From Leisingera sp. ANG1 (GTDB taxonomy: Bacteria; Pseudomonadota; Alphaproteobacteria; Rhodobacterales; Rhodobacteraceae): 64,000 bases of DNA. A program made the position numbers and the translations under genes. How positions within the stretch are numbered: position 1 is the stretch's first letter; every line of letters begins with the position of its first letter. The stretch is taken from the NCBI RefSeq assembly GCF_000203975.2, contig NZ_AFCF02000012.1, positions 62,001 through 126,000 on the forward strand, given 5' to 3'. The notes beneath the pieces were generated by a model. The model saw nothing but the letters and a program-made list of their open reading frames with translations. It made no database searches and was not told the DNA's origin. Of this stretch, positions 49,899-64,000 are shown in pieces.

Positions 49899-50816
49899 CT
49901 ACCAGAAGCGGTCATTCACGCTGTTCAGGGCTGATCTCAGCAACTTCACAAACTCGTCGGCCAAAGCCGAAGTCGGCCGGTGAGCGGGCTGCATAATCGA
50001 CACCTCCAGCGCAACGCCCGGCCGGAACGGGCGGAACACCACCGGACGCGGTTCTGGCCGCATGTTCACATACCCGGCCGCAGTGATCGGATCGCAAACG
50101 CAATAGCACAGCCCCTTCTCCACCAGCGTCAGCGCCGGATGAAAAGTTCGGAGTTCAAACCGGTGCTCAAACCGCGCCTTCTGCGCCTCAAACGCGCGCA
50201 GGGTGGCGATCAGGTTCGGATGCCCCTCCTGCAACGCCGCCATCGGTTTGCCCGACAAATGCCGTGCCTCCACAGCCTCCAATTCTGCCAGCGGATCACC
50301 TGCAGGGATCGCACAGACACATTCCATCTGGAAATCCACCGTCTCAATCGCCGCTGACGGCCTCGGCGTCTCCCCCAGCCCGATGTCATATTGCTGCGAT
50401 GCCACCCATTCCTCGATCACCGGCGAGGCCCGCATCATCAGAGACGCCCGCACCTCCGGCTTGTCCTGCAGGAACTCTCCCAGCAGCTGTGGCATCAGCA
50501 GGCTCGCCGCGGCCGGCATGCAGGCGATGTTCAACCGCCCCTTCGCCAGCGCCCCGATCTCGCGCATGGTGCGGGTCGACAGCGCCAGCCGGTCAAGAAT
50601 GGCCTCCGTCTCGCCCAGAAAATACTGCGCCTCCGGCGTCGGTGCCATTTTTCCCCGCTGGCGGCGGAACAAATTGATCCCCAGCTCGGTCTCAAGGTTA
50701 GCGATCAGGGCAGAGACCGCAGGCTGAGTCCGTCCCAGAATCCGCGCCGCATCAGACACCGATCCGGTCCGCATCACCTCCCGGAAGGCCTGTAGCTGAC
50801 GAAAGCTCAGGTTCAT
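49899..50816 (-). CDS. LysR-family transcriptional regulator
   Basis: The 305-residue regulator starts MNLSFRQLQAFREVMRTGSVSDAARILGRTQPAVSALIANLETELG, a standard LysR HTH (shown in parts), and has an effector domain with LNIACMPAAASLLMPQLL. It is divergent from the TRAP operon at 50962 (145 bp apart), a clear regulator-target layout. A 220-bp gap on its 3' side holds no gene; it contains a weak hairpin at 49705-49728. Confidence 0.93.
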   Translation of the reverse strand: MNLSFRQLQAFREVMRTGSVSDAARILGRTQPAVSALIANLETELGINLFRRQRGKMAPTPEAQYFLGETEAILDRLALSTRTMREIGALAKGRLNIACMPAAASLLMPQLLGEFLQDKPEVRASLMMRASPVIEEWVASQQYDIGLGETPRPSAAIETVDFQMECVCAIPAGDPLAELEAVEARHLSGKPMAALQEGHPNLIATLRAFEAQKARFEHRFELRTFHPALTLVEKGLCYCVCDPITAAGYVNMRPEPRPVVFRPFRPGVALEVSIMQPAHRPTSALADEFVKLLRSALNSVNDRFW

Positions 50817-50961
50817 GGCTTTTGATTTCCTTCACATTTTTCGCAAACCATAAAGCAACTCTATTCCCCAATCAATTTAATCGCTTTGACTTAATACCCC
50901 CCACCCGCAAGTTTCCCTTCCACGGATGCACCACCTGTATCCGCCCAAAAGGGAGGGGAAC

Positions 50962-51444
50962 ATGACACGCGCCTTCAGTGTGCTGCTGACAGTGCTGATC
51001 TGCCTGGTGGCCCTGGGACAGTTCGTCCAGGTGATCACCCGCTACGTGCTGGAAATCCCGGTGATGGGGCTGGAGGAAAGCCTGCTTTATCCCACGCTTT
51101 GGCTTTACATGCTGGGCGCCGTGAACGCCTCGCGCGAGAACACCCACATCCGCGCCAATGTGCTGGAAATCTTCCTGTCATCCGAGCGCCAGCACCAGGT
51201 GCTGGCCATCATCGGTGAAGTCATCAGCCTTGCCGTCGGCCTTTGGCTCACCTCCTGGGCCTGGGACTTCTGGAAGTATTCCCAGCGGGTCTGGCGCGAA
51301 AGCCCGACACTTTATCTGCCCACCTTCTACGTCGATGCAGCGCTGTTCATCGGCATGGTCCTGATGATGGCCTTCACCGCCTGCCACTTGCTCCTGCACA
51401 TCCGCGCTCTGTTCACCCCTCTCCCGGCGCGAAAGGAAGCCTGA
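50962..51444 (+). CDS. TRAP transporter small permease (DctQ family)
   Basis: The 160-residue membrane protein has four hydrophobic segments; VTRYVLEIPVMGLEE-like sequence (ITRYVLEIPVMGLEESLL) after the first helix is the usual DctQ feature. GGGAGGGGAAC lies just before ATG 50962. First gene of an operon with DctM, DctP, a three-component dehydrogenase and RidA. Confidence 0.92.
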   Translation: MTRAFSVLLTVLICLVALGQFVQVITRYVLEIPVMGLEESLLYPTLWLYMLGAVNASRENTHIRANVLEIFLSSERQHQVLAIIGEVISLAVGLWLTSWAWDFWKYSQRVWRESPTLYLPTFYVDAALFIGMVLMMAFTACHLLLHIRALFTPLPARKEA

Positions 51445-51445
51445 G

Positions 51446-52744
51446 ATGATCGAGATTGCCCTCCTTGCCGTTCTGGTCCTGGTCCTTTTGCTGACCCTGG
51501 GCGTGCCGCTCCCCTACTGCTTTGGCGCTGGTCTGATGGTGATGTATTTCGCCGGGGACGTGGTGATGAAGGGCAACATGCTCTGGGGCTTCCAGCAGCT
51601 GGGCAACCCGGTGCTGCTGGCGATCCCGCTGTTCGTGCTGGCCGGCACGATCATGAGCGTCTCCGGCATTGCCGCCAGCCTGCTGAACTTCGTAAACATC
51701 TTCATCGGCCATTTGCGCGGCGGGCTTGGTGTTGTCGCCACCGTGTCCTGCGCCCTCATTGGCGCAATCTCCGGCTCCGGCCTCACCGGGGTGGCCGCCA
51801 TCGGCCCGCTGCTGATCCCCGAGATGGAGAAACAGGGCTACCCCCGCGAATACGCCACCGCCCTCATCGCCAATGCTTCGCTGCTGGGCCTGCTGATCCC
51901 GCCCTCGGTCACCATGATCGTCTACGGCTGGGTCACCGACACCTCGATCCTCGCCTGTTTCCTGGCCACCCTCGGCCCCGGCCTGCTGATCATGTCAAGT
52001 TTCTCTATCGTCAACATCCGCATGGCCCGCAAATTCCCGCTGCAGCTGGCTGAGCCGCCCAAGGGCGCCGCCTTTGTCTCCGAGGCCGCCAGCCGCGGCC
52101 TCAAGGCCACCCCGGCGCTGCTGATGCCAGTGATCATCCTCGGCGGCATCTACGGGGGCATAATGACCCCGACAGAGGCCGCAGCCGTCGCCGTAATCTA
52201 TGCCGTGCCCGTCGGCTTTCTGATCTACAAGGGCCTCGACATCCGCACCTTCCTTGGCGCCGGGCGCGAGGCGGCAACCTCGGTGGGAGCGATCATGCTG
52301 ATGATCCTGTTTTCGATGATCCTCAGCCAGATGTTCGTGCTGGAAAGCGTGCCGCAAGCCATCGTCGAGGGCATCTTCACGATCACCGAAAACAAGGCGC
52401 TGCTGCTGATCCTGATCAATATCCTCTTGTTCCTAGTCGGCATGGTGGTGAACGACGTGACTGCCATCATCCTGATTGCACCGCTGCTTCTACCGCTGAT
52501 GCAGGCCATTGGCGTCAGCCCGATCCAGTTCGCCGCGATCATGGGTGTGAACACCGCGATGGGCGGAGTCACCCCGCCCTATGCCTCGATCCTCTACCTC
52601 GGCGCCCGCGTTGGCCAAGTGCCGGTCACCAAGGTGATCCGCCCTGCCATGACACTGATCCTGCTCGGCTATCTGCCGGTGGTGTTCCTCACCAGCTTCT
52701 GGCCGGACCTGTCGCTCTGGCTGCCCCGTATCTTCGGCTACTAA
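51446..52744 (+). CDS. TRAP transporter large permease (DctM family)
   Basis: The 432-residue membrane protein has DctM blocks: ALIGAISGSGLTGVAAIGPLLIPEM, LLGLLIPPSVTMIVYG and TAMGGVTPPYASILYLG. It lies 1 bp after DctQ. Forms the channel of a second TRAP system in the window, distinct from the 5-oxoproline one. Likely substrate an amino, imino or keto acid oxidised by the downstream dehydrogenase. Confidence 0.94.
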   Translation: MIEIALLAVLVLVLLLTLGVPLPYCFGAGLMVMYFAGDVVMKGNMLWGFQQLGNPVLLAIPLFVLAGTIMSVSGIAASLLNFVNIFIGHLRGGLGVVATVSCALIGAISGSGLTGVAAIGPLLIPEMEKQGYPREYATALIANASLLGLLIPPSVTMIVYGWVTDTSILACFLATLGPGLLIMSSFSIVNIRMARKFPLQLAEPPKGAAFVSEAASRGLKATPALLMPVIILGGIYGGIMTPTEAAAVAVIYAVPVGFLIYKGLDIRTFLGAGREAATSVGAIMLMILFSMILSQMFVLESVPQAIVEGIFTITENKALLLILINILLFLVGMVVNDVTAIILIAPLLLPLMQAIGVSPIQFAAIMGVNTAMGGVTPPYASILYLGARVGQVPVTKVIRPAMTLILLGYLPVVFLTSFWPDLSLWLPRIFGY

Positions 52745-52784
52745 GCCGCCCCGCTTTCATCATCACTCACGGAGGAGAAAACCT

Positions 52785-53777
52785 ATGATGACATTCCTGA
52801 AGTCCACCTGTATGGCCGCAACCCTGGCCGCAACCGCCGGCATGGCGATGGCGGACACGCTGAAGCTCAGCCATATCCGCCCGCAAGGCGCCACCATCGA
52901 CAACGAACTGCGCGTCTTTGCTGAAAGCCTCTCCGGCGCGACCGGCGGCTCGCTGGAGCTGAACCTGTTCCCGGCTTCGGCGCTGGGTGACTACACTTCG
53001 GTGCAGGAACGCATTTCCGTCGGCGCCATTGACATGGCTGTGCAGCCTGCTGCCACTGCTGTTGACCGCCGGATGCAGATCTCGGCCTTTCCTTACGTCG
53101 CCTCCAACTGGGCTGAAGCCAAAAAGATCTACGGCCCCGGCGGCGCCATCTATGACGCGATGAAGGAGCTTTATGCCAAGCAGGACATCACCATGCTGGC
53201 CGCCTATCCGGTTTATTTCGGCGGCGTGGCGCTGAACACTGATGCGGTTGACCCCGGCAACCCAACCGCCGCCAAGGGCATCAAGGTCCGCGTCCCTGGT
53301 ATCAAGAGCTTCCAGCTGACCGCTGACGCGCTCGGCTACATCTCCTCGCCGATCCCCTTCTCCGAAGCCTTCACTGCGGTGCAGACCGGCGTGGTTGATG
53401 GTGTCGTCGGCTCCGGCGCCGAAGGCTATTATGCTTCCTTCCGCGATGTGACCTCCACCTATGTGCCAGTGAACACGCACTTCGAAGTCTGGTACATGAT
53501 CATCAACTCCGGCACCCTGGCCGAGCTGAGCGACGAAGACCGCGCAGCACTAGAAGCCGGTGCTGTCGCTTTTGAAGCCAAACGCTGGGAAACCGCCGAG
53601 GCTGACCAGGGCGCGTTTGAGCAGAAGCTTGCCGACAACGGGGCCAAGATCGTTTCGCTGAGCGATGCGGAGCTTGCCGCCACCGCCAAACACGTGCGCG
53701 CCCAGGTCTGGCCGCAGGTGCTGGAGGATGTCGGCGCGGACTGGGGCCAGGCCATCCTCGACAAGATCGCCGAGTAA
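52785..53777 (+). CDS. TRAP transporter solute-binding protein (DctP family)
   Basis: The 330-residue periplasmic protein has a signal peptide (residues 1-23, MAMA-D) and DctP landmarks: KLSHIRPQGATIDNELRVFAE, GAIDMAVQPAAT, KGIKVRVPGIKSFQLTADALG with the carboxylate-binding Arg, and SEAFTAVQTGVVDGVVGSG. GGAGGAG is located before ATG 52785. A perfect terminator hairpin follows it, allowing excess binding protein. Ligand inferred to be an amino acid or hydroxyproline-like compound from the enzymes downstream. Confidence 0.93.
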   Translation: MMTFLKSTCMAATLAATAGMAMADTLKLSHIRPQGATIDNELRVFAESLSGATGGSLELNLFPASALGDYTSVQERISVGAIDMAVQPAATAVDRRMQISAFPYVASNWAEAKKIYGPGGAIYDAMKELYAKQDITMLAAYPVYFGGVALNTDAVDPGNPTAAKGIKVRVPGIKSFQLTADALGYISSPIPFSEAFTAVQTGVVDGVVGSGAEGYYASFRDVTSTYVPVNTHFEVWYMIINSGTLAELSDEDRAALEAGAVAFEAKRWETAEADQGAFEQKLADNGAKIVSLSDAELAATAKHVRAQVWPQVLEDVGADWGQAILDKIAE

Positions 53778-53793
53778 TCCGGCCTCAGAACTT

Positions 53794-53831
53794 GGGAAAG
53801 GCGAGCCCTCCCCGGCGCCTTTCCCCTTTTT
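53794..53831 (+). terminator. Terminator/attenuator after the second DctP gene
   Basis: GGGAAAGGCG (53794-53803) and CGCCTTTCCC (53816-53825) form a perfect 10-bp stem, followed by CTTTTT. Since the enzyme genes continue on the same strand, it probably acts as partial terminator. Confidence 0.9.
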
Positions 53832-53854
53832 GCTTTCCCGACGGAGACCCGCAG

Positions 53855-54166
53855 ATGTTCCGATCCCTTCGTTCAGATGGCGCCCCCAAGGTTACGCTGA
53901 CAATAAACGGCCAGGAAGTCACCGCTGCAGCCGGGCAATCGGTCTGGTCTGCCATGGCGCTGACTGGCCAGTCCGTGACCCGCCGCGCGGCCCTGTCAGG
54001 CGAAAACCGCAGCGCCTATTGCGCCATGGGCGTCTGTTTCGAATGTATGGTGATCATCGACGGCCTGCCGAACCAGCAAGCCTGCCTGCACCGCGTTGCA
54101 GAGGGAATGACCGTCACCACCCAGAACATCACCCAAGACTGCGAGGCCGAAAATGCAGGCCCTTGA
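53855..54166 (+). CDS. [2Fe-2S]-binding small subunit of an amino-acid dehydrogenase (HcnA/LhpE-like)
   Basis: The 103-residue ferredoxin-like protein has the cysteine pattern Cys56-x4-Cys61-x2-Cys64-x12-Cys77 (YCAMGVCFECMV ... QQACLHR), as in the small iron-sulfur subunits of hydrogen cyanide synthase, opine dehydrogenase and D-hydroxyproline dehydrogenase. It passes electrons from the FAD subunits. It overlaps the following FAD-subunit gene by 14 bp. Start ATG 53855 has CGGAGA upstream. Confidence 0.9.
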   Translation: MFRSLRSDGAPKVTLTINGQEVTAAAGQSVWSAMALTGQSVTRRAALSGENRSAYCAMGVCFECMVIIDGLPNQQACLHRVAEGMTVTTQNITQDCEAENAGP

Positions 54167-55562
54167 CTGTGCCATCATCGGCGCCGGCCCGGCCGGTATG
54201 ACAGCCGCTATCGAGCTTTCCAAGGGCGGCGCCAAGGTCGCCGTGCTGGATCGCGGTACCCGCGCTGGCGGCCAGATTTACCGCGCCGCCGCCGCCAGCC
54301 CCCTGCCCAATACAAGCGCGCTGGGGCCCGACTACCAAGCGGGAGCGGAGCTGATCGCAGCTTTTGAACGCACGGACCTTACCCATTTCGCCAGCAGCGA
54401 TGCCTGGCACCTTGGCGACGACGGCCGCGTTCTGTTTTCACACTTGGGCGAAACGCATGAGCTGCACTGCCGTGAGATGCTGCTCTGCCCCGGCGCGATG
54501 GAGCGTCCGATGCCGATCCCCGGCTGGACCCTGCCCGGCGTGATGACCGCTGGCGCCGCCCAGGTGATGCTGAAATCCGATGCCACCGTGGCCGAAGGTG
54601 CGGTTTTCGCAGGTTCCGGCCCGTTGCTCTATCTGATCGTGGCGCAATACCTGCGCCTTGGAGTGCCCGTCACCGCCTTGGTCGACACCACCCCGCGGCA
54701 GAACTACCTGAACGCCGCCCCGCTCCTGCCCCGCGCCCTGCGCCAAGCCGGGCAACTGAAGAAGGGCATCGCCCTCCTGCGCGAAATCCGCTCGGCAGGA
54801 ATCCCGCAGTACCGCTTTGCCGAAAACCTCGAAGTGCTGGGACAGAACAAGGCTAAGGGACTGCGCTTCACATCAGGCGGCCAGATCCGCGAGATCGCTG
54901 CAGAAACCATCTTTTTGCATCACGGCGTCCAGCCCAATCTCAACATGACCCGGGCCATGGATCTGGCCCACCGCTGGAACCCGCAACAGCTGTGCTGGCA
55001 AGTGGAAACCGATGCATTCGGGCAAACCTCGATCCAGCATATCTCTGCCGCGGGTGACGGTGCTGGGATCATCGGCGCCGATGGCGCCCGTATTGCGGGC
55101 CGCCTGGCTGCGCTCAACATCCTGCACCGCTTGGGCCGCCTGAGCGAGGCAGACCGCAACCGCCAGGCCACCCCCGGTATTGCGAAACTCGCCGCCATGG
55201 CCCCGTTCCGCGCCTTCATCGATAGGCTCTACCACCCGGCAAACGCGCTGCGCCTGCCGCAAAACCCGGACACCTTGGTTTGCCGCTGCGAGGAGCAGAC
55301 GCTGGCGGATCTCCGCGAAGGCTTTAATCAAGGAGCCCGCGACCCCAATGCGCTGAAATCCCTCACCCGCTGCGGCATGGGCCCCTGCCAAGGGCGCCAA
55401 TGCGGCCACATGGTAACTGGCCTTCTCTCGCAATGGCGCGCCGAACCAACCGAGGCTGTCGGTTATTACCGCCTGCGTAGCCCTCAGCGGCTGCTTACGC
55501 TGGACGAACTCAGCCGCTTCCAGGCCGTACCGGCCCCCACCCATGCGGAGGCTGCGGAATGA
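54153..55562 (+). CDS. FAD/NAD(P)-dependent oxidoreductase, alpha-type subunit (HcnB/LhpF-like)
   Basis: The 469-residue subunit begins with a dinucleotide fold ALDCAIIGAGPAGMTAA, has a second Rossmann region (VAEGAVFAGSGPLLYLI) and ends with a BFD-like [2Fe-2S] module: TLVCRCEEQTLADLRE and TRCGMGPCQGRQCG. That architecture is the large subunit of HcnABC / octopine-oxidase / D-hydroxyproline dehydrogenase complexes. Overlap with the small iron-sulfur gene before it and ATGA overlap with the DAO-type gene after it show assembly of one complex. It oxidises a D-amino or imino acid with electrons to the respiratory chain, by family analogy. Confidence 0.9.
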   Translation: MQALDCAIIGAGPAGMTAAIELSKGGAKVAVLDRGTRAGGQIYRAAAASPLPNTSALGPDYQAGAELIAAFERTDLTHFASSDAWHLGDDGRVLFSHLGETHELHCREMLLCPGAMERPMPIPGWTLPGVMTAGAAQVMLKSDATVAEGAVFAGSGPLLYLIVAQYLRLGVPVTALVDTTPRQNYLNAAPLLPRALRQAGQLKKGIALLREIRSAGIPQYRFAENLEVLGQNKAKGLRFTSGGQIREIAAETIFLHHGVQPNLNMTRAMDLAHRWNPQQLCWQVETDAFGQTSIQHISAAGDGAGIIGADGARIAGRLAALNILHRLGRLSEADRNRQATPGIAKLAAMAPFRAFIDRLYHPANALRLPQNPDTLVCRCEEQTLADLREGFNQGARDPNALKSLTRCGMGPCQGRQCGHMVTGLLSQWRAEPTEAVGYYRLRSPQRLLTLDELSRFQAVPAPTHAEAAE

Positions 55563-56674
55563 AAGGCGACGTCTTAGTCATCGGCGGCGGTATCCAGGGT
55601 TGTGCCACCGCCTATCACCTTGCCCGCCAGGGCGCTTCGGTGATCCTGCTGGAGAAAGACTATGCCGGCCGCCATGCCTCCGGCGTCAATGCAGGCGGCG
55701 TACGCCTCTTGGGCCGCGACATGGCAGAAGTGCCGCTGTCCAAGGCCTCGATGGAGATGTGGCAGACCCTGGACGAGGAGCTGGGGCATGAGACCGGCTT
55801 CCGGCGCCAGAGTGTCATCAACATCGCCGCCGATCTGACCGACATGACCACCCTGCGCGCCCGCGAGGAGCGGATGCAGGCCGCGGGTTTCACCCACGAA
55901 CGCATCCTCAGCCGGGCTGAGCTGCTCGACCGCCTGCCGCATGTGAACCCGGACTGCGCAGGCGGCGCCATCTCTGAGCAGGACGGCTATGCCATCCCCT
56001 ACAAATCCACCAGCGCCTTCCGCCTGGCCGCCGAACGCCACCGCGCGAAAGTTGTCGAAGGCGAGGAGCTTCTCAGCCTGCGCCGTGTCGGCCCCGCCTG
56101 GCTCGCTCAGGGGCACAAGAACCGCTACGAGGCAGAAACCGTCGTCAACTGCGCTGGCGCCTGGGCCGACCACATCGCGCTAATGATTGGTGACAACGTG
56201 CCGCTCAGCCATGCCGCGCCAATGCTGATGATCACCGCAAGGATGCCGCATTTTGCCGCCCCCGTGGTCGGCGCCGTCAGCCGCCAGCTCAGCTTCAAGC
56301 AGTTCAAAAACGGCACCGTCCTGATTGGTGGCGGCGCCAAGGGCTTTGCCGACCGCGCAAATAACCGCACCCGGCTGGATTACGCGAAACTCGCCTCTGC
56401 TGCCCGCACCACAGTGGAGTTCTTCCCGATCATGCGCCGCGCCAGTATCAACCGAATGTGGGCAGGACTGGAAGCCTATATGCCCGACAACCTGCCTGTG
56501 ATCGGTCCGGCAGCAAACGCAGACCGCGCCTTCCACGCCTTCGGCTTCTCCGCCCATGGTTTCCAGATGGGGCCCATCGTCGGCCAGGTGATGGCGGATC
56601 TGGTGCTGGGCGGCCAAAGCCGCTTCAACCTTACCCCGTTCCGCATTAACCGTTACGACCGCAAGATCCTTTGA
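55559..56674 (+). CDS. FAD-dependent amino-acid dehydrogenase, DAO-type beta subunit (HcnC/LhpB-like)
   Basis: The 371-residue protein has the DAO-family start VLVIGGGIQGCATAYHLARQG, LLEKDYAGRHASGVNAGGVR and a C-terminal TPFRINRYD region. It is the substrate-oxidising subunit paired with the alpha- and iron-sulfur subunits upstream. The gene overlaps the alpha gene by 4 bp. An imine product would explain the RidA gene that follows 17 bp later. Confidence 0.92.
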   Translation: MKGDVLVIGGGIQGCATAYHLARQGASVILLEKDYAGRHASGVNAGGVRLLGRDMAEVPLSKASMEMWQTLDEELGHETGFRRQSVINIAADLTDMTTLRAREERMQAAGFTHERILSRAELLDRLPHVNPDCAGGAISEQDGYAIPYKSTSAFRLAAERHRAKVVEGEELLSLRRVGPAWLAQGHKNRYEAETVVNCAGAWADHIALMIGDNVPLSHAAPMLMITARMPHFAAPVVGAVSRQLSFKQFKNGTVLIGGGAKGFADRANNRTRLDYAKLASAARTTVEFFPIMRRASINRMWAGLEAYMPDNLPVIGPAANADRAFHAFGFSAHGFQMGPIVGQVMADLVLGGQSRFNLTPFRINRYDRKIL

Positions 56675-56691
56675 CAGGAAAGACAACTGAC

Positions 56692-57036
56692 ATGACCATC
56701 ACCCGGATCGAAACCGGCCAGCGCATGAGCCGGATCGTCAAGCACAACGGCGTCGCCTATCTGTGCGGCCAAACCTCCAGCGCCGCCACCGTGGCGGAGC
56801 AGACAGGCGAGATCCTCGCCAAGGTCGAGGACCTGCTGGAGAAAGCCGGCAGCGACAAGACCCGCATTTTGAAATGCGAGATCTGGCTGGCCGACATGGC
56901 CGATTTTGCCGAGATGAACGAGGTCTGGGACACCTGGGTGCCAGAAGGACAGGCCCCGGCCCGCGCCTGCGGCAAAGCAAGGCTCGCCCGCGATGTGCTG
57001 AAAGTTGAGATGATCGTCACCGCTGCCTGTGACTAA
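56692..57036 (+). CDS. ridA: RidA-family (YjgF/UK114) enamine/imine deaminase
   Basis: The 114-residue protein has VAYLCGQTS, VEDLLEKAGSDKTRILKCEIWLADM, and the Arg region EGQAPARACGKARLARD that includes the catalytic-type Arg. RidA proteins hydrolyse reactive enamine/imine intermediates to keto acids and ammonia. It is 17 bp downstream of the DAO-type gene and is the last gene in the operon. The placement supports imine production by the dehydrogenase. Confidence 0.93.
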   Translation: MTITRIETGQRMSRIVKHNGVAYLCGQTSSAATVAEQTGEILAKVEDLLEKAGSDKTRILKCEIWLADMADFAEMNEVWDTWVPEGQAPARACGKARLARDVLKVEMIVTAACD

Positions 57037-57043
57037 AATCCCG

Positions 57044-57370
57044 CTAATGCCGCACGGCCGGGTTCTGCTTGCATTGGTGGAATACGGCCTGGCGGCGGCG
57101 GATGGGATTTGAAAGTCTTTCCAGTGAGACCGGCAATCCCAAGCCAGCCGCAAGGTCCTGAATTCCGCTGACATGACAGAGTTGTTCTGCTCCGGCACCC
57201 AAGGTTAGCCTCTTTCCGCTCCGATCTTGGACCACCTCAGATTTGACGAAACCAACCTTCAGGTACGCGCACTGGTAGTAGTTTTCCTGTCCCTCACAGG
57301 GTTCGCCTGTGTGTTTCGGCCCTGAACCGACGTTCGCCATGAGTGCCAACGCTGCAATGCAGCTTCTCAA
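57044..57370 (-). CDS. Possible small exported Cys-containing protein
   Basis: A minus-strand frame of 108 codons (TTG start) or 98 codons (ATG 57340) lies in an otherwise empty 438-bp stretch. The longer form begins RSCIAALALMANVGSG, weakly like a signal peptide, and has several Cys residues (near residues 24, 33, 65, 99). I do not recognise a family. Composition is not clearly non-coding. A convincing Shine-Dalgarno is absent (GGTGAAAG at best). It may be a decayed or spurious gene. Confidence 0.3.
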   Translation of the reverse strand: MRSCIAALALMANVGSGPKHTGEPCEGQENYYQCAYLKVGFVKSEVVQDRSGKRLTLGAGAEQLCHVSGIQDLAAGLGLPVSLERLSNPIRRRQAVFHQCKQNPAVRH

Positions 57371-57474
57371 AAGCAGACTTTCACCACGAGATCAGCATCC
57401 AAACGGATTTGAGGATTATTGCGGAGAAGGCCAAGGCCGCCCTGCAGAACAAGGCGGACTTGGCAGGGTTGCAA

Positions 57475-58899
57475 TTATGCGATCAGGCCAACGCGTTTCC
57501 GAATGGCTTCAAAACTCTGACGCGCGATGACCTCGCCATCCCGGAAAACTGTTTTCAGCGCGTCGTGGCCGGACGGGATGTTGCCGTATGGGCGAACCAC
57601 AAACTTGCCCGCATCTGTTTCCATCACACCAAGACGCCCTTTCTTCGAGGTTTTGCTGCCCGCGGCAGTGATCGGGTCTTTGAAGACGTCGCGCCATTCC
57701 CCGTTCACGCAGATGGCCGAGGTTTTCATCGAGTATGAGAACGTATCCCGATCCAGTTTCTGCAGCAGGCCTGCGCCCATGCCAAAGGCGATGTTGCCAA
57801 TGGCAAGGCCTCGCTCAATCATCCGGTCCATGATCCGGACAATAGAGGTCTTGTTCACCCCGTCGCCCTGGATCACCCGCACCTGGCTGGGCAGGATACG
57901 GAAATTGTTCGGGGTCAGGGAATAGCCGAACCTCTCCATCAGCGCCTCGATCACATCGGGCACGATCTGCAACGGGTCGCCGCTGTCGGGGCGTATGACA
58001 AGCACCCCGTCACGGGCCAATACCGTGTTGCGCAGCTCAGTGCCCCAATACTTCCGCACCGCCCGCATCAAATCGTAGCTGTCCGAAACACAGGCGATGA
58101 TCCCTTGGGGGTTGTCCGCAAGGAACTGCCGCATGAAGTCCAGCTCTCCATCCGCACCGAAAGAGGTCACGGTGCTGTGCTCTGTCGCAGGGATCGAGAA
58201 ACCGGCCATGCCGGCACCGTAAACGTTGCGGGCAAGTACAAGCCCGCCCACTGTGTCGGTGCCCATCGAATTCACCAAATGCGCAGCTCCGCCGATTGCA
58301 GCACTTTCGGCGCTGGTGGCGCCGCGCGCACCGAAGTCGTGCAGCTTGAAGGCAAGGCCTTCGTCGCTGCCATCGGTTCGGATCAGGCGGTCCCGGATTT
58401 GCCGTACAACGTAGTTTGAAATGGTCGCGACGGTGCTGGGATACCAGACGGCCCGAAGCAACCGGGTTTCCAGAAAGCCGGGCAAGGCCCAGCATTTGGG
58501 ATCGGTATTCACAATTCTGACCTGCGGGATCGAGACCGGGGCAATCGTTCCTTCAGCCAGGGCGTCAATCTGCACGGGCAAAAGCCCGTCGTGCGCATCA
58601 ATGATGTGCTGAAACATTTCGACATAGAGCGAAAGGCCGTGGGCTTCGATAAAGGGGGTGGCCTCGTCCAGCATGGCTTGGGTGACGATGCGCCCATCCA
58701 GCTTCACCAGTTCAGCCTGAAGGCCGAAAAACAGGACCTCATCGATCTCACCATCGGGGCGGCGCGGCTCGATATAGGCAAAGACCTTTTCAGTGCCTTC
58801 TGGAAACTGCTTGGGGTGGCTGTATTTGTAGCTGTCCGTGTCGAGCAGGAAATTGCCCGTAGCAACACTGTTTGCAAAATTTGATGTTTGCATCATCAT
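57475..58899 (-). CDS. nadV: Nicotinamide phosphoribosyltransferase (NadV/NAMPT type)
   Basis: The 474-residue enzyme makes NMN from nicotinamide and PRPP. Visible motifs are NFLLDTDSYKYSHPKQFP, HDFGARGATSAESAAIGG, IRPDSGDPLQIV and QGDGVNKTSI, all typical of NAMPT/NadV and not of NAPRT. Length is close to human NAMPT. I used the first of three tandem ATGs (58899), with AAGGAGG about nine bases upstream. It is encoded downstream of nadM, with an 88-bp gap containing a hairpin. The two genes give a two-step nicotinamide-to-NAD route that bypasses deamidation. Similar nadV-nadM pairs are found on phages and in scattered bacteria. Confidence 0.95.
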   Translation of the reverse strand: MMMQTSNFANSVATGNFLLDTDSYKYSHPKQFPEGTEKVFAYIEPRRPDGEIDEVLFFGLQAELVKLDGRIVTQAMLDEATPFIEAHGLSLYVEMFQHIIDAHDGLLPVQIDALAEGTIAPVSIPQVRIVNTDPKCWALPGFLETRLLRAVWYPSTVATISNYVVRQIRDRLIRTDGSDEGLAFKLHDFGARGATSAESAAIGGAAHLVNSMGTDTVGGLVLARNVYGAGMAGFSIPATEHSTVTSFGADGELDFMRQFLADNPQGIIACVSDSYDLMRAVRKYWGTELRNTVLARDGVLVIRPDSGDPLQIVPDVIEALMERFGYSLTPNNFRILPSQVRVIQGDGVNKTSIVRIMDRMIERGLAIGNIAFGMGAGLLQKLDRDTFSYSMKTSAICVNGEWRDVFKDPITAAGSKTSKKGRLGVMETDAGKFVVRPYGNIPSGHDALKTVFRDGEVIARQSFEAIRKRVGLIA

Positions 58900-58965
58900 G
58901 GCTCCAGTCCTCCTTGGATTGGATATGTGAAGCCGTACCGGACCTCCCGGCAGGCTGGGGATCAT

Positions 58966-58980
58966 GGCCCCGGCGGGGCC
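58966..58980. repeat. Hairpin between nadM and nadV
   Basis: GGCCCC (58966-58971) pairs with GGGGCC (58975-58980) around GGC. It lies just past the nadM stop on the minus strand and may balance the expression of the two genes. Confidence 0.5.
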
Positions 58981-58987
58981 GATGAAT

Positions 58988-60094
58988 TCAGTGCATCCGG
59001 CTCATCAGAACCGAAGAATAGGCAAAGGGCACGTTGGGCACCAAAGCCTGAATGATGTCGAAGTGATCTTCGAACATCACGTCCGGGGTCAGTTGATTGA
59101 CCGGCATCCAGAAGGCGCGTTTGGCGTCATCCGCGCCTTTGACCTTTTCCTGCGCCTTGCCATCAATCAGCTCGAACTTGAACGCCTCGGTGCGCACCCA
59201 GCCGCGTTCGGAGCGATCCGGGTGGTCGAACACCTGCCGCGCGGCGATCCGGCCCTCCAGCAGCTTGCGCGGAATGTTCAGGCGGGTTTCCTCGATCAGC
59301 TCGCGGATTGCCGCCTCTTGCGCAGTTTCTTTCTGGAGGTGCCCGCCAGGCAAGGCATACAGTCCTTGACCCGGAGCCTTGGCCCGTTCGACCAGCAGGA
59401 TATGCCCGTTCTGGACCACCACCGCATCGGCGCAGTCCGCAGGGATTTCATGTCCAAACGCGGCAACTGCCTTTCGGTAGTTCTCGCGATAGGCCTGATT
59501 ATACGCCGCCTCTGCGCGGATTTGAGCCACGGCGCCTGTGTTTTGCTCCATCCATGAAACAACCTGATCGGTTTCAACCGCACCGAAGGTGTCACGCAAT
59601 TTCGCAACGAGAGCTTTATCCAGGAACAGCCCGGCGCGCATGTCGGTGGCATTCAAAACAGTGGATCCGTTGCGTTCCGCCTCTACTGAGACAGCTTCGA
59701 GCTCCGGAAACCAGCGCAAGTAACGGCTGCTTTCATCCTTATCATGCCCGACCAGAACAATCCGGGCATCCGCCCGCGCAATCCCTTGGGTTCGCAAGTG
59801 AAGATCAATCGCCGTGCGCACATTACCTGCCCAGGTCTTGTCGTCATACAGAGTATCGATCAGCGGCAGACATGTGATGTCCGCCGTGCAACCAGCAGAT
59901 TTCATAGCTGTGGTGATGAAGTCCGCCCGTTCCGTCCATTTGAACGCGTTCTTCTCTGATCTCGGCCGGAAAGCCGATCCGATCAGCGTCAACGTTTGAT
60001 CTGAGATTTGTGAAGCATGTTCGAACAGCTTACGGTGCCCTTTGTGAAAAGGCTGAAACCGTCCAATGATCACTGAAAGCGTGACCTGTGTCAT
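58988..60094 (-). CDS. nadM: Bifunctional NMN adenylyltransferase / Nudix hydrolase
   Basis: The 368-residue protein fuses two domains. Residues 1-175 are a nucleotidyltransferase: IIGRFQPFHKGH (HKGH 17-20), LIGSAFRPRSEKNAF and a conserved FLDKALVAKL end. Residues about 215-368 are a Nudix hydrolase with the box GGHLQKETAQEAAIREL then IEET (Gly250 to about 272). The first joins NMN and ATP into NAD; the Nudix half probably acts on ADP-ribose. Such NadM-Nudix fusions are known in cyanobacteria, Francisella and phages. It is the first gene of the nad operon. The ATG overlaps the stop of a ten-codon leader (ATGA). Confidence 0.95.
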   Translation of the reverse strand: MTQVTLSVIIGRFQPFHKGHRKLFEHASQISDQTLTLIGSAFRPRSEKNAFKWTERADFITTAMKSAGCTADITCLPLIDTLYDDKTWAGNVRTAIDLHLRTQGIARADARIVLVGHDKDESSRYLRWFPELEAVSVEAERNGSTVLNATDMRAGLFLDKALVAKLRDTFGAVETDQVVSWMEQNTGAVAQIRAEAAYNQAYRENYRKAVAAFGHEIPADCADAVVVQNGHILLVERAKAPGQGLYALPGGHLQKETAQEAAIRELIEETRLNIPRKLLEGRIAARQVFDHPDRSERGWVRTEAFKFELIDGKAQEKVKGADDAKRAFWMPVNQLTPDVMFEDHFDIIQALVPNVPFAYSSVLMSRMH

Positions 60095-60123
60095 AGCGCG
60101 ACCTCCGCGATATCAATGTGCAT
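60091..60123 (-). CDS. Ten-codon leader peptide overlapping nadM
   Basis: ATG 60123 opens a frame encoding MHIDIAEVAL and ends at TGA 60091-60093, which overlaps the nadM ATG (60094-60092) in an ATGA arrangement. It has an ideal Shine-Dalgarno AAGGAGG (60130-60136) six bases upstream, better than the GCGGAGG available for nadM itself. It lies at the very 5' end of the predicted transcript. Such a layout suggests translational coupling or a sensor leader. It is too short for standard gene callers; that it is translated is inference. Confidence 0.5.
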   Translation of the reverse strand: MHIDIAEVAL

Positions 60124-60145
60124 GCAAGACCTCCTTGCATGCACA
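60117..60145. promoter_or_regulatory. Perfect 12-bp inverted repeat at the nadM promoter
   Basis: TGTGCATGCAAG (60117-60128) and CTTGCATGCACA (60134-60145) are perfect arms with a 5-base centre. On the minus strand the centre and the second arm carry the leader Shine-Dalgarno AAGGAGG and the leader ATG. The element lies just downstream of a -10 box. It can be read as an operator for an NAD-responsive repressor or as an RNA hairpin that hides the ribosome site. Confidence 0.75.
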
Positions 60146-60147
60146 AT

Positions 60148-60176
60148 TAGGTATGTCGCTCAGTTCGGGTTGTCAA
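60148..60176 (-). promoter_or_regulatory. Sigma-70-like promoter of the nadM-nadV operon
   Basis: On the minus strand TTGACA (60176-60171) is followed after 17 bases by TACCTA (60153-60148). The consensus -35 and ideal spacing are clear; the -10 matches four of six positions. The start point would fall at the edge of the 12-bp inverted repeat, so a protein bound there would block transcription. Confidence 0.75.
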
Positions 60177-60184
60177 CTATAGGT

Positions 60185-60200
60185 GGCGCGCTCGCGCGCC
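60185..60200. terminator. GC-rich hairpin between the Gabija pair and the nad operon
   Basis: GGCGCG (60185-60190) and CGCGCC (60195-60200) pair around CTCG. It lies 114 bp past the helicase stop and just upstream of the nad promoter. No T tract follows, so termination would be weak. Nothing else definite was seen in 60201-60313. Confidence 0.45.
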
Positions 60201-60313
60201 CACAGCCTGCTTCCGCTTCCCGCGAAAGATCTGATCGCACTCTTCCGCGCGCATAGTGCCGATCGGACGACCCAGATTTTGCTTTGTCGCCGAAACTCGT
60301 ACGGAACCGTCCT

Positions 60314-62263
60314 CTAGGTCCCGCCGGGCGCAGCCATCACGACCTCGTCCTCGGACATCCATCCGTTGGAAATCAAGAAGTGGCGGATTGTATCGGGGGC
60401 CTCGGAATAGAGCACAAGCGCGAGGCTCTCTTCCGCCCGCGTGCAGGTGACGTACAGCAAACGGCGTGTACGCTCGATCGTGGTTTCCTCCCCCTTGTCC
60501 GCCTGTTTCTGCGCGGTTGGGCCTAGGGGCTTCACCTCGAACAGCGTCTCGTAGGAGGCAAGGCCTTTGAAGCGCGTGTGGGCGTCGTCGGCGACCACCA
60601 TAACCCGGGGGAATTCGAGCCCCTTGACTCCTTGGTGGGTGCCATAAGGGCTGCGGTCTTCAACATAGGCGAGGTAGCGCGCCACTTGGGAAAACGGGGC
60701 GGCAAGTGCCTGCGTCCAGGCCTCGGTGATGGTGGTTGCTATGGGAGGTGTGTCCTCGGGCGTAGTCAGGCCCTGCTCGTCAAAAGTGGGACCAAGCTCG
60801 GCAAGAATGTCGGCCATGTCCTGGGCCACGGGACTGTTGTCAGGCAAACAGGGCCGAAACTGATCTGGGATCGGGAACAGCCGGTGCTCGGCCACCACCG
60901 CTAACACTTCGGCACAACTCGGATCCCGTTCGTCCATAAATAGTGTCATCAGCGCCGCGACACCCGCCCGCGCCGCGTCGAGGCCAGAGGCTTGGTCCGC
61001 GTGCCCCGCCCGGATACCTCTCTTATCGACCAGCGGTGAGCCGTCGCGCAGCACCGCCATAGCGGCAAAGGCATCCCCATTCCTTTGTGCCGTCACCAAA
61101 GGCAAGACCCGGTGGGTGAAAAGCCGCATCGCGGGCAAGGTGCCATCGCGAAACCCGTCCTTGAGCTTGTCGGGTTTGCTCAGGGGCTCAAACAGCTCAC
61201 TAAAGCCAAGACGTGCGGCAGCCATGTGACGCTCGATCGTCAGGGTCTTGATCGCCTCCGCGTCCTGCCATGCGCGGTCTTCGGTGATGCGGGTCATTTC
61301 CGCCCGGGTCCAAGCTTCAAATGCCGCGCGATCCGTGCCCTCGCTTGGCGCAAGAAAGACGCGCACGGTGCCACCCGGTTTGTCTTCGCGCGCACGCTGC
61401 TGGCGGCCATCATCGTCGCGCCGGATCGCATTCGCCAAGTCCACGACCCGCGCGCGGCTGCGATGGTTCATCTGTTTGGCGGGTTGCGCGAAATCCCCCA
61501 CCCTTTGGTCGAGATCGCGCAAACCATCAGTGTAAATGCGCTGCATCGTGTCCCCGAGCAACCCTAGGGCGATGCGGCCGCGATGGCGCGCCTCGAAGGT
61601 CAAAAGCGCCTCCATCAATGGTTTCATCGTGTCCTGGCTCTCGTCGATCAGGATGAACGGGTAGCGCGCCAGAACGATGTTCTGGAATGTCTCGCTTTCA
61701 GTCAGGAAATGCGCGGCGAGCGCGATGACCTCGGTATGTTGCAGCGCGTCGCGGCCGAAATTGTCCCCCACGGGCGCGTAGGTGAAGGCGCGGATCTCGG
61801 CCAGGTGCTCCAGCCGCTTTGTCTTGGAGGCCATCTTCTTGACGCGTTTGTCATGGGCGTCGGTGCCCGCCCGGCCCTTTGCATGGGCTGCCTGGATCTC
61901 GGCGATCTCTGTCTGCAAGCGGCTCTCCAGCCAGCCCCTAATATCCGCCGTGCGTCCCTCGATGAGCGACCAAGCGAAGCTGTGGATGGTCTGCACCTGA
62001 AACACCGGATCGGCCTTGACGCGGCGCGTGATCTCATCTGCGGCGGCGTTGGTATAGGTGATAACGGCGATCTTGCGGCAATGTTTGCGCAAGGTGGTCA
62101 GGGTCTGTGTGTCCAACCCTTCCAGTGCGTCCTTGAGAGAGCGCGTCTTGCCCGATCCCGCCCCGGCAAAGAGAAAGAAGCTGCGCGGCTGATCGAGGGA
62201 CAGGCACGCGCGGATCGTCGCGTCAGCGCCAGCGTCGCGGGTGTCGTCGGTCACGCCCACCAT
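60314..62263 (-). CDS. gajB: UvrD/PcrA-like helicase, Gabija GajB-like
   Basis: The 649-residue superfamily-1 helicase shows Walker A GAGSGKT (residues 34-40), ITYTNAAADEITRRV (motif Ia), FILIDESQDT (Walker B), GLLGDTMQRIY (motif III), HQGVKGLEFPRVMVV (motif V) and LLYVTCTRAEESL (motif VI). ATG 62263 overlaps the upstream nuclease gene by 13 bp and has GGAGGGGG six bases upstream. A UvrD-like helicase coupled to an OLD-family nuclease is the definition of the Gabija anti-phage system (GajA-GajB). This protein is longer than the about 494-residue B. cereus GajB. Its role would be to sense or process DNA ends and regulate the nuclease. Confidence 0.85.
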   Translation of the reverse strand: MVGVTDDTRDAGADATIRACLSLDQPRSFFLFAGAGSGKTRSLKDALEGLDTQTLTTLRKHCRKIAVITYTNAAADEITRRVKADPVFQVQTIHSFAWSLIEGRTADIRGWLESRLQTEIAEIQAAHAKGRAGTDAHDKRVKKMASKTKRLEHLAEIRAFTYAPVGDNFGRDALQHTEVIALAAHFLTESETFQNIVLARYPFILIDESQDTMKPLMEALLTFEARHRGRIALGLLGDTMQRIYTDGLRDLDQRVGDFAQPAKQMNHRSRARVVDLANAIRRDDDGRQQRAREDKPGGTVRVFLAPSEGTDRAAFEAWTRAEMTRITEDRAWQDAEAIKTLTIERHMAAARLGFSELFEPLSKPDKLKDGFRDGTLPAMRLFTHRVLPLVTAQRNGDAFAAMAVLRDGSPLVDKRGIRAGHADQASGLDAARAGVAALMTLFMDERDPSCAEVLAVVAEHRLFPIPDQFRPCLPDNSPVAQDMADILAELGPTFDEQGLTTPEDTPPIATTITEAWTQALAAPFSQVARYLAYVEDRSPYGTHQGVKGLEFPRVMVVADDAHTRFKGLASYETLFEVKPLGPTAQKQADKGEETTIERTRRLLYVTCTRAEESLALVLYSEAPDTIRHFLISNGWMSEDEVVMAAPGGT

Positions 62264-64000
62264 ATCGCACCCCCTCCGTCCTTCAGCTGGCGCGCAAGCC
62301 AAGTCAGGCCAGTGTCGATATAGGGCGGCGCTCGAAGTGCTTTGATGTCCTCGATATAAAGGAGGTCCAGCGCGAAGGCGGCCTTCTCCGGTTTTTTTGC
62401 CAACCGATCAAAGAGCGCGGTGGCGAGGTCCTCTGGCGTGGACTCGGCAGCGATGAACTTGGCAAAGTCACGGGTCATGCGGCAGGACAGTTCCGCCTTC
62501 GCGGCGTCCTTTACGAGTTTCGGGTTGGTCAGCGCAAGAGCATCCTCGAAGGTGCTGGGCGTGATGTTCTTGGACACCGAGCCAAGGGTAACGCTTTGCA
62601 GTGTCTGGTAACTGACGGCGATGGGGCGGTCGGAGGCCGTGTGACACAGGGCCTTGAGTGGAGGAGCCAAAAGCGTGTCGATCTCTGCTAGCCCGGGGAG
62701 CCAGGTCTTTAGCACGTGGTTCGAGGTGGTCTGAGCGGCCCCGTAGCAAGGCTGGGCCGATTGTTTGACAACCTTACCGCCCTTGTTGACCTCCACCACC
62801 GCGTCAAGATCGGTGATAATCAGCGTCGGTAGCTCCAGTGCCTCGATCAGAGGCTTCATCCGGTGCGCGTGGCTGCCCCCCAATTCCAGGAAAGAGAGAT
62901 AGGCCGCAGCCAAATTAGGGTAGTGATGCTGGATCAGATGCGGCAGCAGGATTCGTTCTGCGGCACCCTCGATCACGATGATGGCGTCGGCGAAGAATAG
63001 GTCAAAATGTGTGCTCAGCAGATAGCGCGTCACGAAACGACGGGTTTCTGTATCCTCTCCGAAGAGCCCCGTCATATTCGCCACAGTGGCCGTGGGTACA
63101 ACTCCGGGACTTGGCAGCTCGCGCTTGAAATAACGCAGTTCCTCAAACGAGGCAGCGTGCGCGATATGGCCCGAATGTGTACTCACGACCAGCTGCGTGG
63201 TAAAAGCCGATCCCTTCTCCCTAAGATCATCATGGTCGCGGAGCACCTTGTAGGCTCTGGCCATGAAGACCTGCTGCACTTGAACATGCAGATGCGCCTC
63301 CGGCTCCTCGATCAGCACCAGTTGCAGGGGTTCGATGCCCCTGTCGTCCGCGCTCACCACTTGGGATTTGAACTTGCCTACCTGCATCCAGTCATCCCGG
63401 AAGCGCATCAGCTGGAACACCATGGAGATTAGGTTCTGGAAGCCCAGACCGTTATAGCTTTCCGGCAACTTCACCCCGGATGCGTCGCCCGATATATCGT
63501 ATTGCACAGCCGCTGGGTGATCGAGCCCGTCAACGGGTTTGATCTGCGTGGCAATGAAGAGTTTTGGATTGTTGAGTCCGCCGGGGTAGCCAAGATTTTC
63601 CAGTTCCTTGATGGCATCGGCGAAGCCATCCTTGAGACGGGCATTGAAGGTGGTTTCGGCATCATGGATGGCCTTGAGCGCTTTAATGTCGTTCGGCGTG
63701 GGGTCCGTTTCGGGGTCGATATGTTTGCGGAAATAGGGCTGTATCTGGCTGGCGATCTTCCGGCTGGTTCGGTTTGTTGGCTCATCGTCGCCGCCCTTAC
63801 TGTCTCCCGCATCTTCGAAACCGCGTTGCGCGTTGATCTCACGAATGTGGATGAGGCCAGCAAATGGGTTCGCACCGATCCCCTCCGACAAGGGCGGCAG
63901 GGGATGTGGCTCCACCGGCTCTGTCGTTGTGAAGCTCGCAGGGTCCAAAAGATGTGCGTTGAGCTCGAATAGGTCCTTCAGGCGTTTGTCCAGAAATTCC
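62251..64000 (-). CDS. gajA: OLD-family ATP-dependent nuclease, Gabija GajA-like, 5' part missing
   Basis: The frame is open to the right edge, so about 583 C-terminal codons are present and the N-terminus with the Walker A motif lies beyond the window. Seen here are the ATPase D-loop/Walker B LVLIEEPEAHLHVQVQQVF, the switch VVSTHSGHIAH and the TOPRIM domain with IIVIEGAAERILLP (Glu), ELGGSHAHRM and LIITDLDAV (Asp-x-Asp). This is the AAA-TOPRIM layout of OLD nucleases. Overlap with the helicase gene (13 bp) supports a class 2 OLD, that is GajA. It should nick or cleave DNA, and in known Gabija is held off by nucleotides and released when they fall. Confidence 0.85.
   Translation of the reverse strand, partial: EFLDKRLKDLFELNAHLLDPASFTTTEPVEPHPLPPLSEGIGANPFAGLIHIREINAQRGFEDAGDSKGGDDEPTNRTSRKIASQIQPYFRKHIDPETDPTPNDIKALKAIHDAETTFNARLKDGFADAIKELENLGYPGGLNNPKLFIATQIKPVDGLDHPAAVQYDISGDASGVKLPESYNGLGFQNLISMVFQLMRFRDDWMQVGKFKSQVVSADDRGIEPLQLVLIEEPEAHLHVQVQQVFMARAYKVLRDHDDLREKGSAFTTQLVVSTHSGHIAHAASFEELRYFKRELPSPGVVPTATVANMTGLFGEDTETRRFVTRYLLSTHFDLFFADAIIVIEGAAERILLPHLIQHHYPNLAAAYLSFLELGGSHAHRMKPLIEALELPTLIITDLDAVVEVNKGGKVVKQSAQPCYGAAQTTSNHVLKTWLPGLAEIDTLLAPPLKALCHTASDRPIAVSYQTLQSVTLGSVSKNITPSTFEDALALTNPKLVKDAAKAELSCRMTRDFAKFIAAESTPEDLATALFDRLAKKPEKAAFALDLLYIEDIKALRAPPYIDTGLTWLARQLKDGGGAIWWA

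Follow-up and report, generated by a model that had tools for sequence, protein, structure and literature searches.

In the guanidine-II (mini-ykkC) riboswitch, a start codon is preceded by a tandem pair of small hairpins whose loops are short and conserved. Leader RNAs are also known from genes of nicotinamide adenine dinucleotide (NAD) metabolism, and the two NAD+ riboswitches, NAD+-I (nadA) and NAD+-II (pnuC), are both included in Rfam. Here, we analyzed a stretch of 64,000 nucleotides from Leisingera sp. ANG1 (contig NZ_AFCF02000012.1, positions 62,001 to 126,000; hereafter the window, whose numbering is used below) and found that a two-hairpin leader precedes each gene of a nadM-nadV NAD-salvage operon, which lies beside a Gabija anti-phage gene pair. 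This leader resembles the guanidine-II riboswitch in having tandem small hairpins with short conserved loops ahead of the start codon, but its loops and its genes are others and it has no match in Rfam. Like NAD+-I and NAD+-II, the latter as described in the accessible part of PMC8632094, it is a leader RNA of NAD genes, whereas those riboswitches serve other genes and taxa. The enzyme pair itself is that of phage NadV-NadM nicotinamide salvage, where NadM likewise bears a Nudix domain (PMC9503650, accessible part), although the copy studied here belongs to the host.

We think it probable that the locus consists of two independently moving units side by side, and that the leader would control translation gene by gene. 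The Gabija unit is of a kind that Roseobacteraceae plasmids carry as well, and the nad unit is a host NAD-salvage operon. The pairing of Gabija with the nad genes can be set aside as a known defense system beside a known salvage operon, and it is the leader RNA that merits further study. NadV-NadM is a route of NAD recovery for cells and for phages facing NAD-depleting defenses; a conserved RNA element before both enzymes, in bacteria and phages, offers a handle on the control of NAD recovery and may represent regulatory RNA of a new class.

The two-hairpin leader in Rhodobacterales

The nadM leader (60092..60145, minus strand) contains hairpin 1 at 60117-60145, with the loop GAGGT, and hairpin 2 at 60098-60108, which holds the Shine-Dalgarno sequence and is followed by the ATG. 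A second copy precedes nadV within the short gap inside the operon (58897..58956, minus strand), with hairpin 1 at 58931-58956 and a Shine-Dalgarno hairpin 2 at 58903-58923, again followed by the ATG. In both leaders the smaller hairpin 2 pairs the Shine-Dalgarno sequence into a stem ahead of the start codon. The nadM copy is also a palindrome, a perfect 12-bp inverted repeat after a TTGACA hexamer, whose loop region is a Shine-Dalgarno sequence. Folding z-scores were -4.2 for the nadM leader and -1.7 for the nadV leader.

Both copies are present in 16 of 16 Rhodobacterales nadM-nadV operons examined. These operons were picked by their proteins and comprise our own, L041, L062, and all of the 14 loci L063-L076 but L075, which lacks a NadM at this place; four are from Leisingera. 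The loop core is GGAGGTC (RNA GGAGGUC) throughout, except in L071, where it reads GGAGGCC ahead of nadM and GGAGGAC ahead of nadV, and the arms of the repeat covary across these relatives while the center stays fixed. Among 29 distinct Rhodobacterales leaders (15 nadM and 14 nadV), 93.6% of the cells for the seven pairs of hairpin 1 are paired, compared to 57.4% when shuffled; 76 cells are changed on both sides, compared to 27 in shuffles, and pairing falls to 31-46% when the register is slid.

Covariance model R1 was made from 14 nadM leaders and contains no nadV leader; L074 was dropped before R1 was built, and L064, L071, L072, L074, and L076 were dropped before a second model, R2, although all were kept in the pair count for hairpin 1. 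R1 matches the nadM leader at 60092-60143 with 60.5 bits and R2 gives the nadV leader 64.1 bits, where each model includes the copy that it matches. R1 also picks up the nadV leader, which lies outside that model, with 22.5 bits (E 5.6e-5 in the window), a score that is significant in the window yet inside the genome-wide noise range of R1. Over 394 genomes of the family, R1 gave 6 matches of at least 41 bits, and 6 of 6 stand directly before nadM. Five of these are in the model, including the one in G766, which is the genome of L071; the sixth, in G206 (L193 7839-7892, before nadM), is not, and G206 is not among the genomes with NadV at E <= 1e-20. The scan had matches in 195 genomes at E <= 1, and among the matches listed, those below a match in G004 reached at most 24 bits. 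The G004 match itself (31.4 bits, E 9e-6) is on the opposite strand in a frame that by eye is rnpA-like, and we take it as chance rather than as a true leader.

Two other interpretations of this region were dropped. Hairpin 1 of our nadM leader is followed by an ATG, from which a short frame runs to the nadM start and might have encoded a leader peptide; however, by eye this frame is absent in more distant relatives, and the leader peptide was therefore rejected. A genome-wide operator was also rejected, because the palindrome occurs only once in the Leisingera sp. ANG1 genome, even with up to 3 mismatches allowed.

A GATAGAC form in other bacteria and phages

A similar layout with the loop core GATAGAC (RNA GAUAGAC) is found outside Rhodobacterales. 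Among 79 other loci, the exact heptamer occurs within 150 nt upstream of 33 of 52 nadM and 33 of 78 nadV genes (L151 and L092 are one contig, counted twice within the 52 and the 78), compared to a background of 0.009 per 150 nt in the same loci. Among 64 distinct GATAGAC hairpins chosen blind to pairing, each of pairs 2 to 6 is present in 51-61, compared to 25-29 in shuffles; this count is the unselected check on an alignment (A7) that was selected for at least three pairs beside the loop and whose inner pairs are thus biased. Hairpin 2 covaries in this form, with the second pair present in 21 of 21 leaders compared to 8.5 in shuffles, where the 21 are those that could be anchored among 59 selected leaders. 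For both forms taken together, 88 of 91 leaders have 31-46 nt between the loop core and the start codon, and three have 52-53 nt. Hairpins with at least five pairs stand at a nad start in 38 of 41 cases for GATAGAC and 22 of 24 for GGAGG[TC]C in 95 nad-bearing loci (1.59 Mb). The leader is a covarying structure upstream of one functional class of genes, as is characteristic of cis-regulatory RNAs, and its regulation of these genes is predicted.

The leader is used by alpha- and gammaproteobacteria, by one contig of a cyanobacterial metagenome-assembled genome (L106), and by phages. When 2.9 million viral contigs were scanned with a sequence pattern, 20 matches were returned, of which 18 lie immediately ahead of a frame for NadM or NadV (17 of 19 after removal of one duplicate); the pattern was blind to proteins, yet it was written after phage leaders had been seen. 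Several of these viral matches are related, in that L208 and L158 are one contig, L198 and L203 overlap, and L210 and L211 share one leader. The two misses were L196, where the frame stops after nine codons, and L204, which has no NadM or NadV. The roseophages RcXuper and MD18 carry the GATAGAC form before both genes.

None of the 4227 families of Rfam 15 reached its gathering threshold on our own leaders or on the others scanned, where only tRNAs elsewhere in the loci did so, and no NAD riboswitch family was returned for these leaders. One phage nadM leader (L210) resembles the linear ends of the DUF2815 RNA (RF03084), namely a GGGUAGAC-like start and the Shine-Dalgarno sequence, but it scored 18.6 bits against a gathering score of 41.2, and the other scanned leaders were not matched. 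A literature search showed no such leader among the titles listed, although subscription papers were poorly covered and an earlier description, for example in a 2017 paper on 224 RNA motifs, is possible. Likewise, neither nadM nor nadV appears in the accessible parts of three papers on RNA motif discovery.

Two observations concern single loci. In Dasania sp. GY-MA-18 (L102 11592-11670), one of the three GATAGAC hairpins away from a nad start stands before a gene directly behind nadV that by eye is SPFH/band-7-like and is possibly a third member of the regulon. In the gammaproteobacterial loci L116 and L128, TAGTGT...ACACTA-like palindromes were seen by eye further upstream of nadM and may be operators for transcription factors.

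Possible roles of the leader

The data show hairpin 1 with its covariation, its association with nad genes, and its spacing; the leader probably regulates, would act on translation, and may sense the status of the NAD pathway. Hairpin 1, some 31-46 bases ahead of the start codon, carries a five-base loop that hardly varies, and to this hairpin a reporter of NAD-pathway status, either a metabolite or an encoded enzyme, would bind. This binding would shift hairpin 2 between closed and open states. More specifically, the leader could represent a class of translational RNA switch that senses NAD and has not been described before, common to bacteria and their phages and occurring in two loop forms, which is a real possibility, though not one that we would count on. 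If this proposal is true, then the two salvage enzymes are adjusted independently of each other, be it by a cell or by a phage that restores NAD while infecting.

Several observations weigh against control of translation by this leader. The hairpin 2 of Rhodobacterales nadM leaders is short and its three pairs are invariant, so that covariation cannot support it there, and the pairing register of hairpin 2 before nadV differs between genomes. The sole genome match of R1 that is independent of the model, in G206, has a differing core; the case for the leader rests on the GATAGAC and viral scans. By eye, no nadV leader was seen in G138, a genome of the family whose NadV is more distant and lies apart from any NadM, and the natV gene of phage KVP40 has no GATAGAC leader. 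The exact GATAGAC is absent from 19 of 52 nadM and 45 of 78 nadV leaders outside Rhodobacterales, which implies that the element is common and not universal, and the GGAGGTC and GATAGAC loops may belong to separate families. It is also conceivable that hairpins at this position simply fix the level of translation or protect the mRNA.

A loop so small and constant is as compatible with a compact ligand site as with a protein operator. In the first case the leader would be a riboswitch, in which hairpin 1, perhaps with hairpin 2, binds NAD, nicotinamide mononucleotide (NMN), or nicotinamide, so that ample NAD keeps the Shine-Dalgarno hairpin closed. Its place before each NAD-salvage gene of bacteria and phages and the Shine-Dalgarno sequence inside hairpin 2 agree with this mechanism, and its use across alpha- and gammaproteobacteria, a cyanobacterial contig, and phages favors a sensor that needs no lineage-specific protein. 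However, the conserved core is very small (a five-base loop and its closing pair) and differs between two groups, unlike most metabolite aptamers, and we hold the riboswitch only as a tentative possibility. Translational operators bound by proteins are usually one hairpin with a fixed loop and a free stem, and the leader has this shape. The protein would most simply be NadM or NadV itself in an autoregulatory circuit, with loop and protein changing together, consistent with a loop that tracks the lineage of the gene: the two roseophages have GATAGAC, though the Rhodobacterales nad operons examined have GGAGGTC. A loop that follows the gene and not the host fits plain descent as well as an encoded protein, and co-inheritance of leader and gene gives the same pattern. 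Moreover, Pfam recognized no RNA-binding domain in NadM or NadV, and we regard an operator of this kind as slightly less likely than a riboswitch.

Passive roles, in which a 5' stabilizing hairpin and a weak Shine-Dalgarno hairpin fix expression and do not regulate it, are less likely again. If TTGACA is a -35 element, then hairpin 1 of nadM would begin close to the start of transcription, as expected for a stabilizing hairpin; by contrast, passive roles would require neither a nearly invariant loop on a free stem nor a second copy of the element within the operon, ahead of nadV. NrtR is a transcription factor that controls NAD genes, and the perfect 12-bp inverted repeat near a candidate promoter could be the DNA operator of such a factor. 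This reading is very improbable, given that the arms covary freely while an asymmetric center is kept, that the distance to the start codon is held, that a copy stands before nadV, where a separate promoter is not expected, and that the GATAGAC hairpins counted at nad starts are all in the sense of the gene.

Gabija and the nad operon are independent units

The order of genes is gajA-gajB-nadM-nadV, all on the minus strand. The initial annotation had placed nadM-Nudix and nadV within 220 bp of the Gabija pair, as the gajB-nadM gap of 219 bp bears out, and had proposed from this proximity either a combined module for defense and NAD recovery or salvage genes transferred along as a counter-measure. 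The count of adjacent pairs that it suggested gave 1 case in a family sample of 248 genomes and 1 in a class sample of 385, which was Leisingera sp. ANG1 both times. In the family sample, GajA (E <= 1e-20) is present in 13 genomes, NadV in 5, and both in 2, where they are adjacent only in our genome and on separate contigs in G203. In the class sample, GajA and NadV are each present in 8 genomes and occur together only in our genome. In a genus sample of 21 genomes, NadM is 98-99% identical in 4, namely our own, SS27 (G265), ANG-M1 (G256), and ANG-Vp (G255). GajA relatives (E <= 1e-10) are found in 5 of these 21; only that of our genome is close, and the rest share 30-35% identity along a portion of the protein. 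Among 80 other named NadV loci, a GajA or GajB relative (E <= 1e-6) was present only in SS27, where flanks of up to 10 kb on each side were covered and several were ended by contig ends.

DNA alignments from position 50001 to the contig end showed each unit without the other. Stretches of 20 kb from Leisingera ANG-M1 and ANG-Vp align with the window solely over 57317-60214 (minus strand), at 93-94% (93.3-93.6% over this 2.9-kb nad module, with sharp ends) and without Gabija. The neighbors of this module differ between the two strains, with an esterase in one and a LacI-type regulator and transporter genes (the latter by eye) in the other. The counterpart of the left neighbors in the window (50002-57042) lies on another contig of ANG-M1, at 87%, and stops before nad; counterparts of the genes right of Gabija (from ~64.9 kb) are also at other places in G257 and ANG-Vp. 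In both strains the nad module lies at another locus than in the window.

The converse arrangement was found for the Gabija pair, which is present at 86-89% DNA identity on plasmids of Roseovarius sp. THAF9, Sulfitobacter sp. LC.270.F.C4, and Pseudosulfitobacter sp. DSM 107133, and also in G081 and G213. Homology to the plasmids spans the gajB stop codon (60315) to 64621, and in G081 it begins at 60254. In the five stretches fetched (16-20 kb each) nothing aligned with the nad genes, and neither G081 nor G213 belongs to the family genomes with NadV. On the three plasmids (L059, L060, and L061), a Beta_protein (PF14350) gene adjoins Gabija convergently, together with a regulator of helix-turn-helix (HTH) and Peptidase_M78 domains, and a HipA-type toxin gene and its regulator lie beyond; the Beta_protein and HTH/Peptidase_M78 domains were checked on L059 only. 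In the record of the Pseudosulfitobacter plasmid, gajB is annotated as two frames.

The alignments of nad without Gabija and of Gabija without nad imply that two mobile units met. A conserved Gabija-nad module is already contradicted by these observations, and either version of the link, one functional module or a counter-measure that travels with Gabija, is now highly improbable. A link is compatible with the shared strand and the short gap, in which a consensus scan of the minus strand found no terminator-like site, and one transcript could still be common to Gabija and nad. Two further results count against separate units, and the first of them also favors a link. Leisingera SS27 matches 57314-62205 at 97%, the Gabija-nad junction included, so that the junction is not brand new, and the consensus scan scored no promoter upstream of nadM in the 219-bp gap, TTGACA included. 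In SS27, however, gajB is broken by an insertion with an rve-domain transposase (L051 4995-7487, at the start of the contig) and cut off further on; the aligned stretch lacks the remainder of Gabija, and the SS27 genome gave no GajA match, whereas nadM and nadV align over their whole length beside the gajB remnant. The nad genes thus stand alone in two congeners and outlive a broken Gabija in a third, the nearest relatives of Gabija lack nad in the stretches examined, and each broad sample holds one adjacent case, our own genome. The nad operon also has its own leaders and a candidate promoter element: an exact TTGACA (60171..60176, minus strand), 82 bp ahead of nadM, is a putative -35 element that may give the operon a promoter of its own. 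It is conserved in the Leisingera copies, where TTGAC is at -82 in ours and three others; it is at -83 in Roseovarius MMSF_3359 and was not found at that place in more distant relatives. Coincidental juxtaposition is most likely, with no functional link seen, and a literature search found no paper that combines Gabija, NAD+, and nicotinamide phosphoribosyltransferase.

The Gabija genes themselves were correctly recognized in the initial annotation as an OLD-family TOPRIM nuclease that overlaps a UvrD-like helicase by 13 bp, on which domains, PADLOC models, and motifs all agree. gajB (60314..62263, minus strand) encodes a superfamily 1 UvrD-like helicase directly adjoining gajA; it could also start from TTG (60314-62302), but the ATG form gives the 13-bp overlap. 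gajA (62251..64000, minus strand) continues past the window end to ~64494, and the whole frame is present in the contig (L009 6251-8575; G000:C4, 138,254 bp). Counted from the ATG at frame residue 28, GajA has 747 amino acids, and the N-terminal Walker A motif, looked for in the sequence right of the window, is present as GANNSGKT at residue 30. PADLOC matched both models over nearly full length (GajA E 7e-261, GajB E 7e-228), and Pfam recognized AAA_15 and an OLD-like TOPRIM domain in GajA and a UvrD helicase in GajB, which contains GAGSGKT, DESQD, and the later helicase motifs. TOPRIM residues derived from a motif scan (E509, G539, D562, and D564) have the spacing of the active-site residues E379, G409, D432, and D434 in the accessible part of PMC10781630. 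The pair thus resembles Gabija of the Bacillus cereus VD045 type in its OLD ATPase, identical Glu/Gly/DxD spacing, UvrD-like GajB, and overlapping genes. It differs in that GajA has 747 amino acids compared to 598 in the solved structure (chain 8j4t), to whose sequence it is only distantly alike (phmmer E 7e-4). By these features Gabija here is a complete, ordinary system, and its anti-phage activity is predicted.

The nad operon combines an NMN adenylyltransferase fused to a Nudix domain (nadM, 58988..60094, minus strand) with a nicotinamide phosphoribosyltransferase (nadV, 57475..58899, minus strand), and nadM stands just upstream of nadV in the Rhodobacterales loci examined. Pfam recognized CTP_transf_like (cytidylyltransferase-like) and NUDIX domains in NadM and NAMPT_N and NAPRTase in NadV. 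NadV exceeds the NCBIfam cut-off for PRK09198 (517.9 bits, cut-off 405), and NadM has a best E of 3e-86 to the bifunctional-enzyme models of PRK05379, but its 289.9 bits are below the cut-off of 397. NadV would convert nicotinamide to NMN and NadM would then convert NMN to NAD, while the Nudix domain may cut ADP-ribose or NAD. The nadV frame is open to 58965, and its leader and homologues point to 58899 as the most likely true start; the extra 66 bp (58899-58965) cover the nadV leader, and automatic annotation may therefore set the start too far upstream. We also considered a phage NAD-reconstitution cargo and rejected it, because all phage matches are <60% identical (1913 records for NadV and 361 for NadM), whereas cellular ones reach 99%, and because the genes immediately around, as scanned by Pfam with no search aimed at prophages, are metabolic, transport, and regulatory.

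The right end of the contig (L009 14799-19000 and L010) is GC-rich and encodes a protein with AAA and Peptidase_M41 domains (FtsH-like). A frame that by eye resembles a serine recombinase runs toward the contig end, which suggests another mobile element there.

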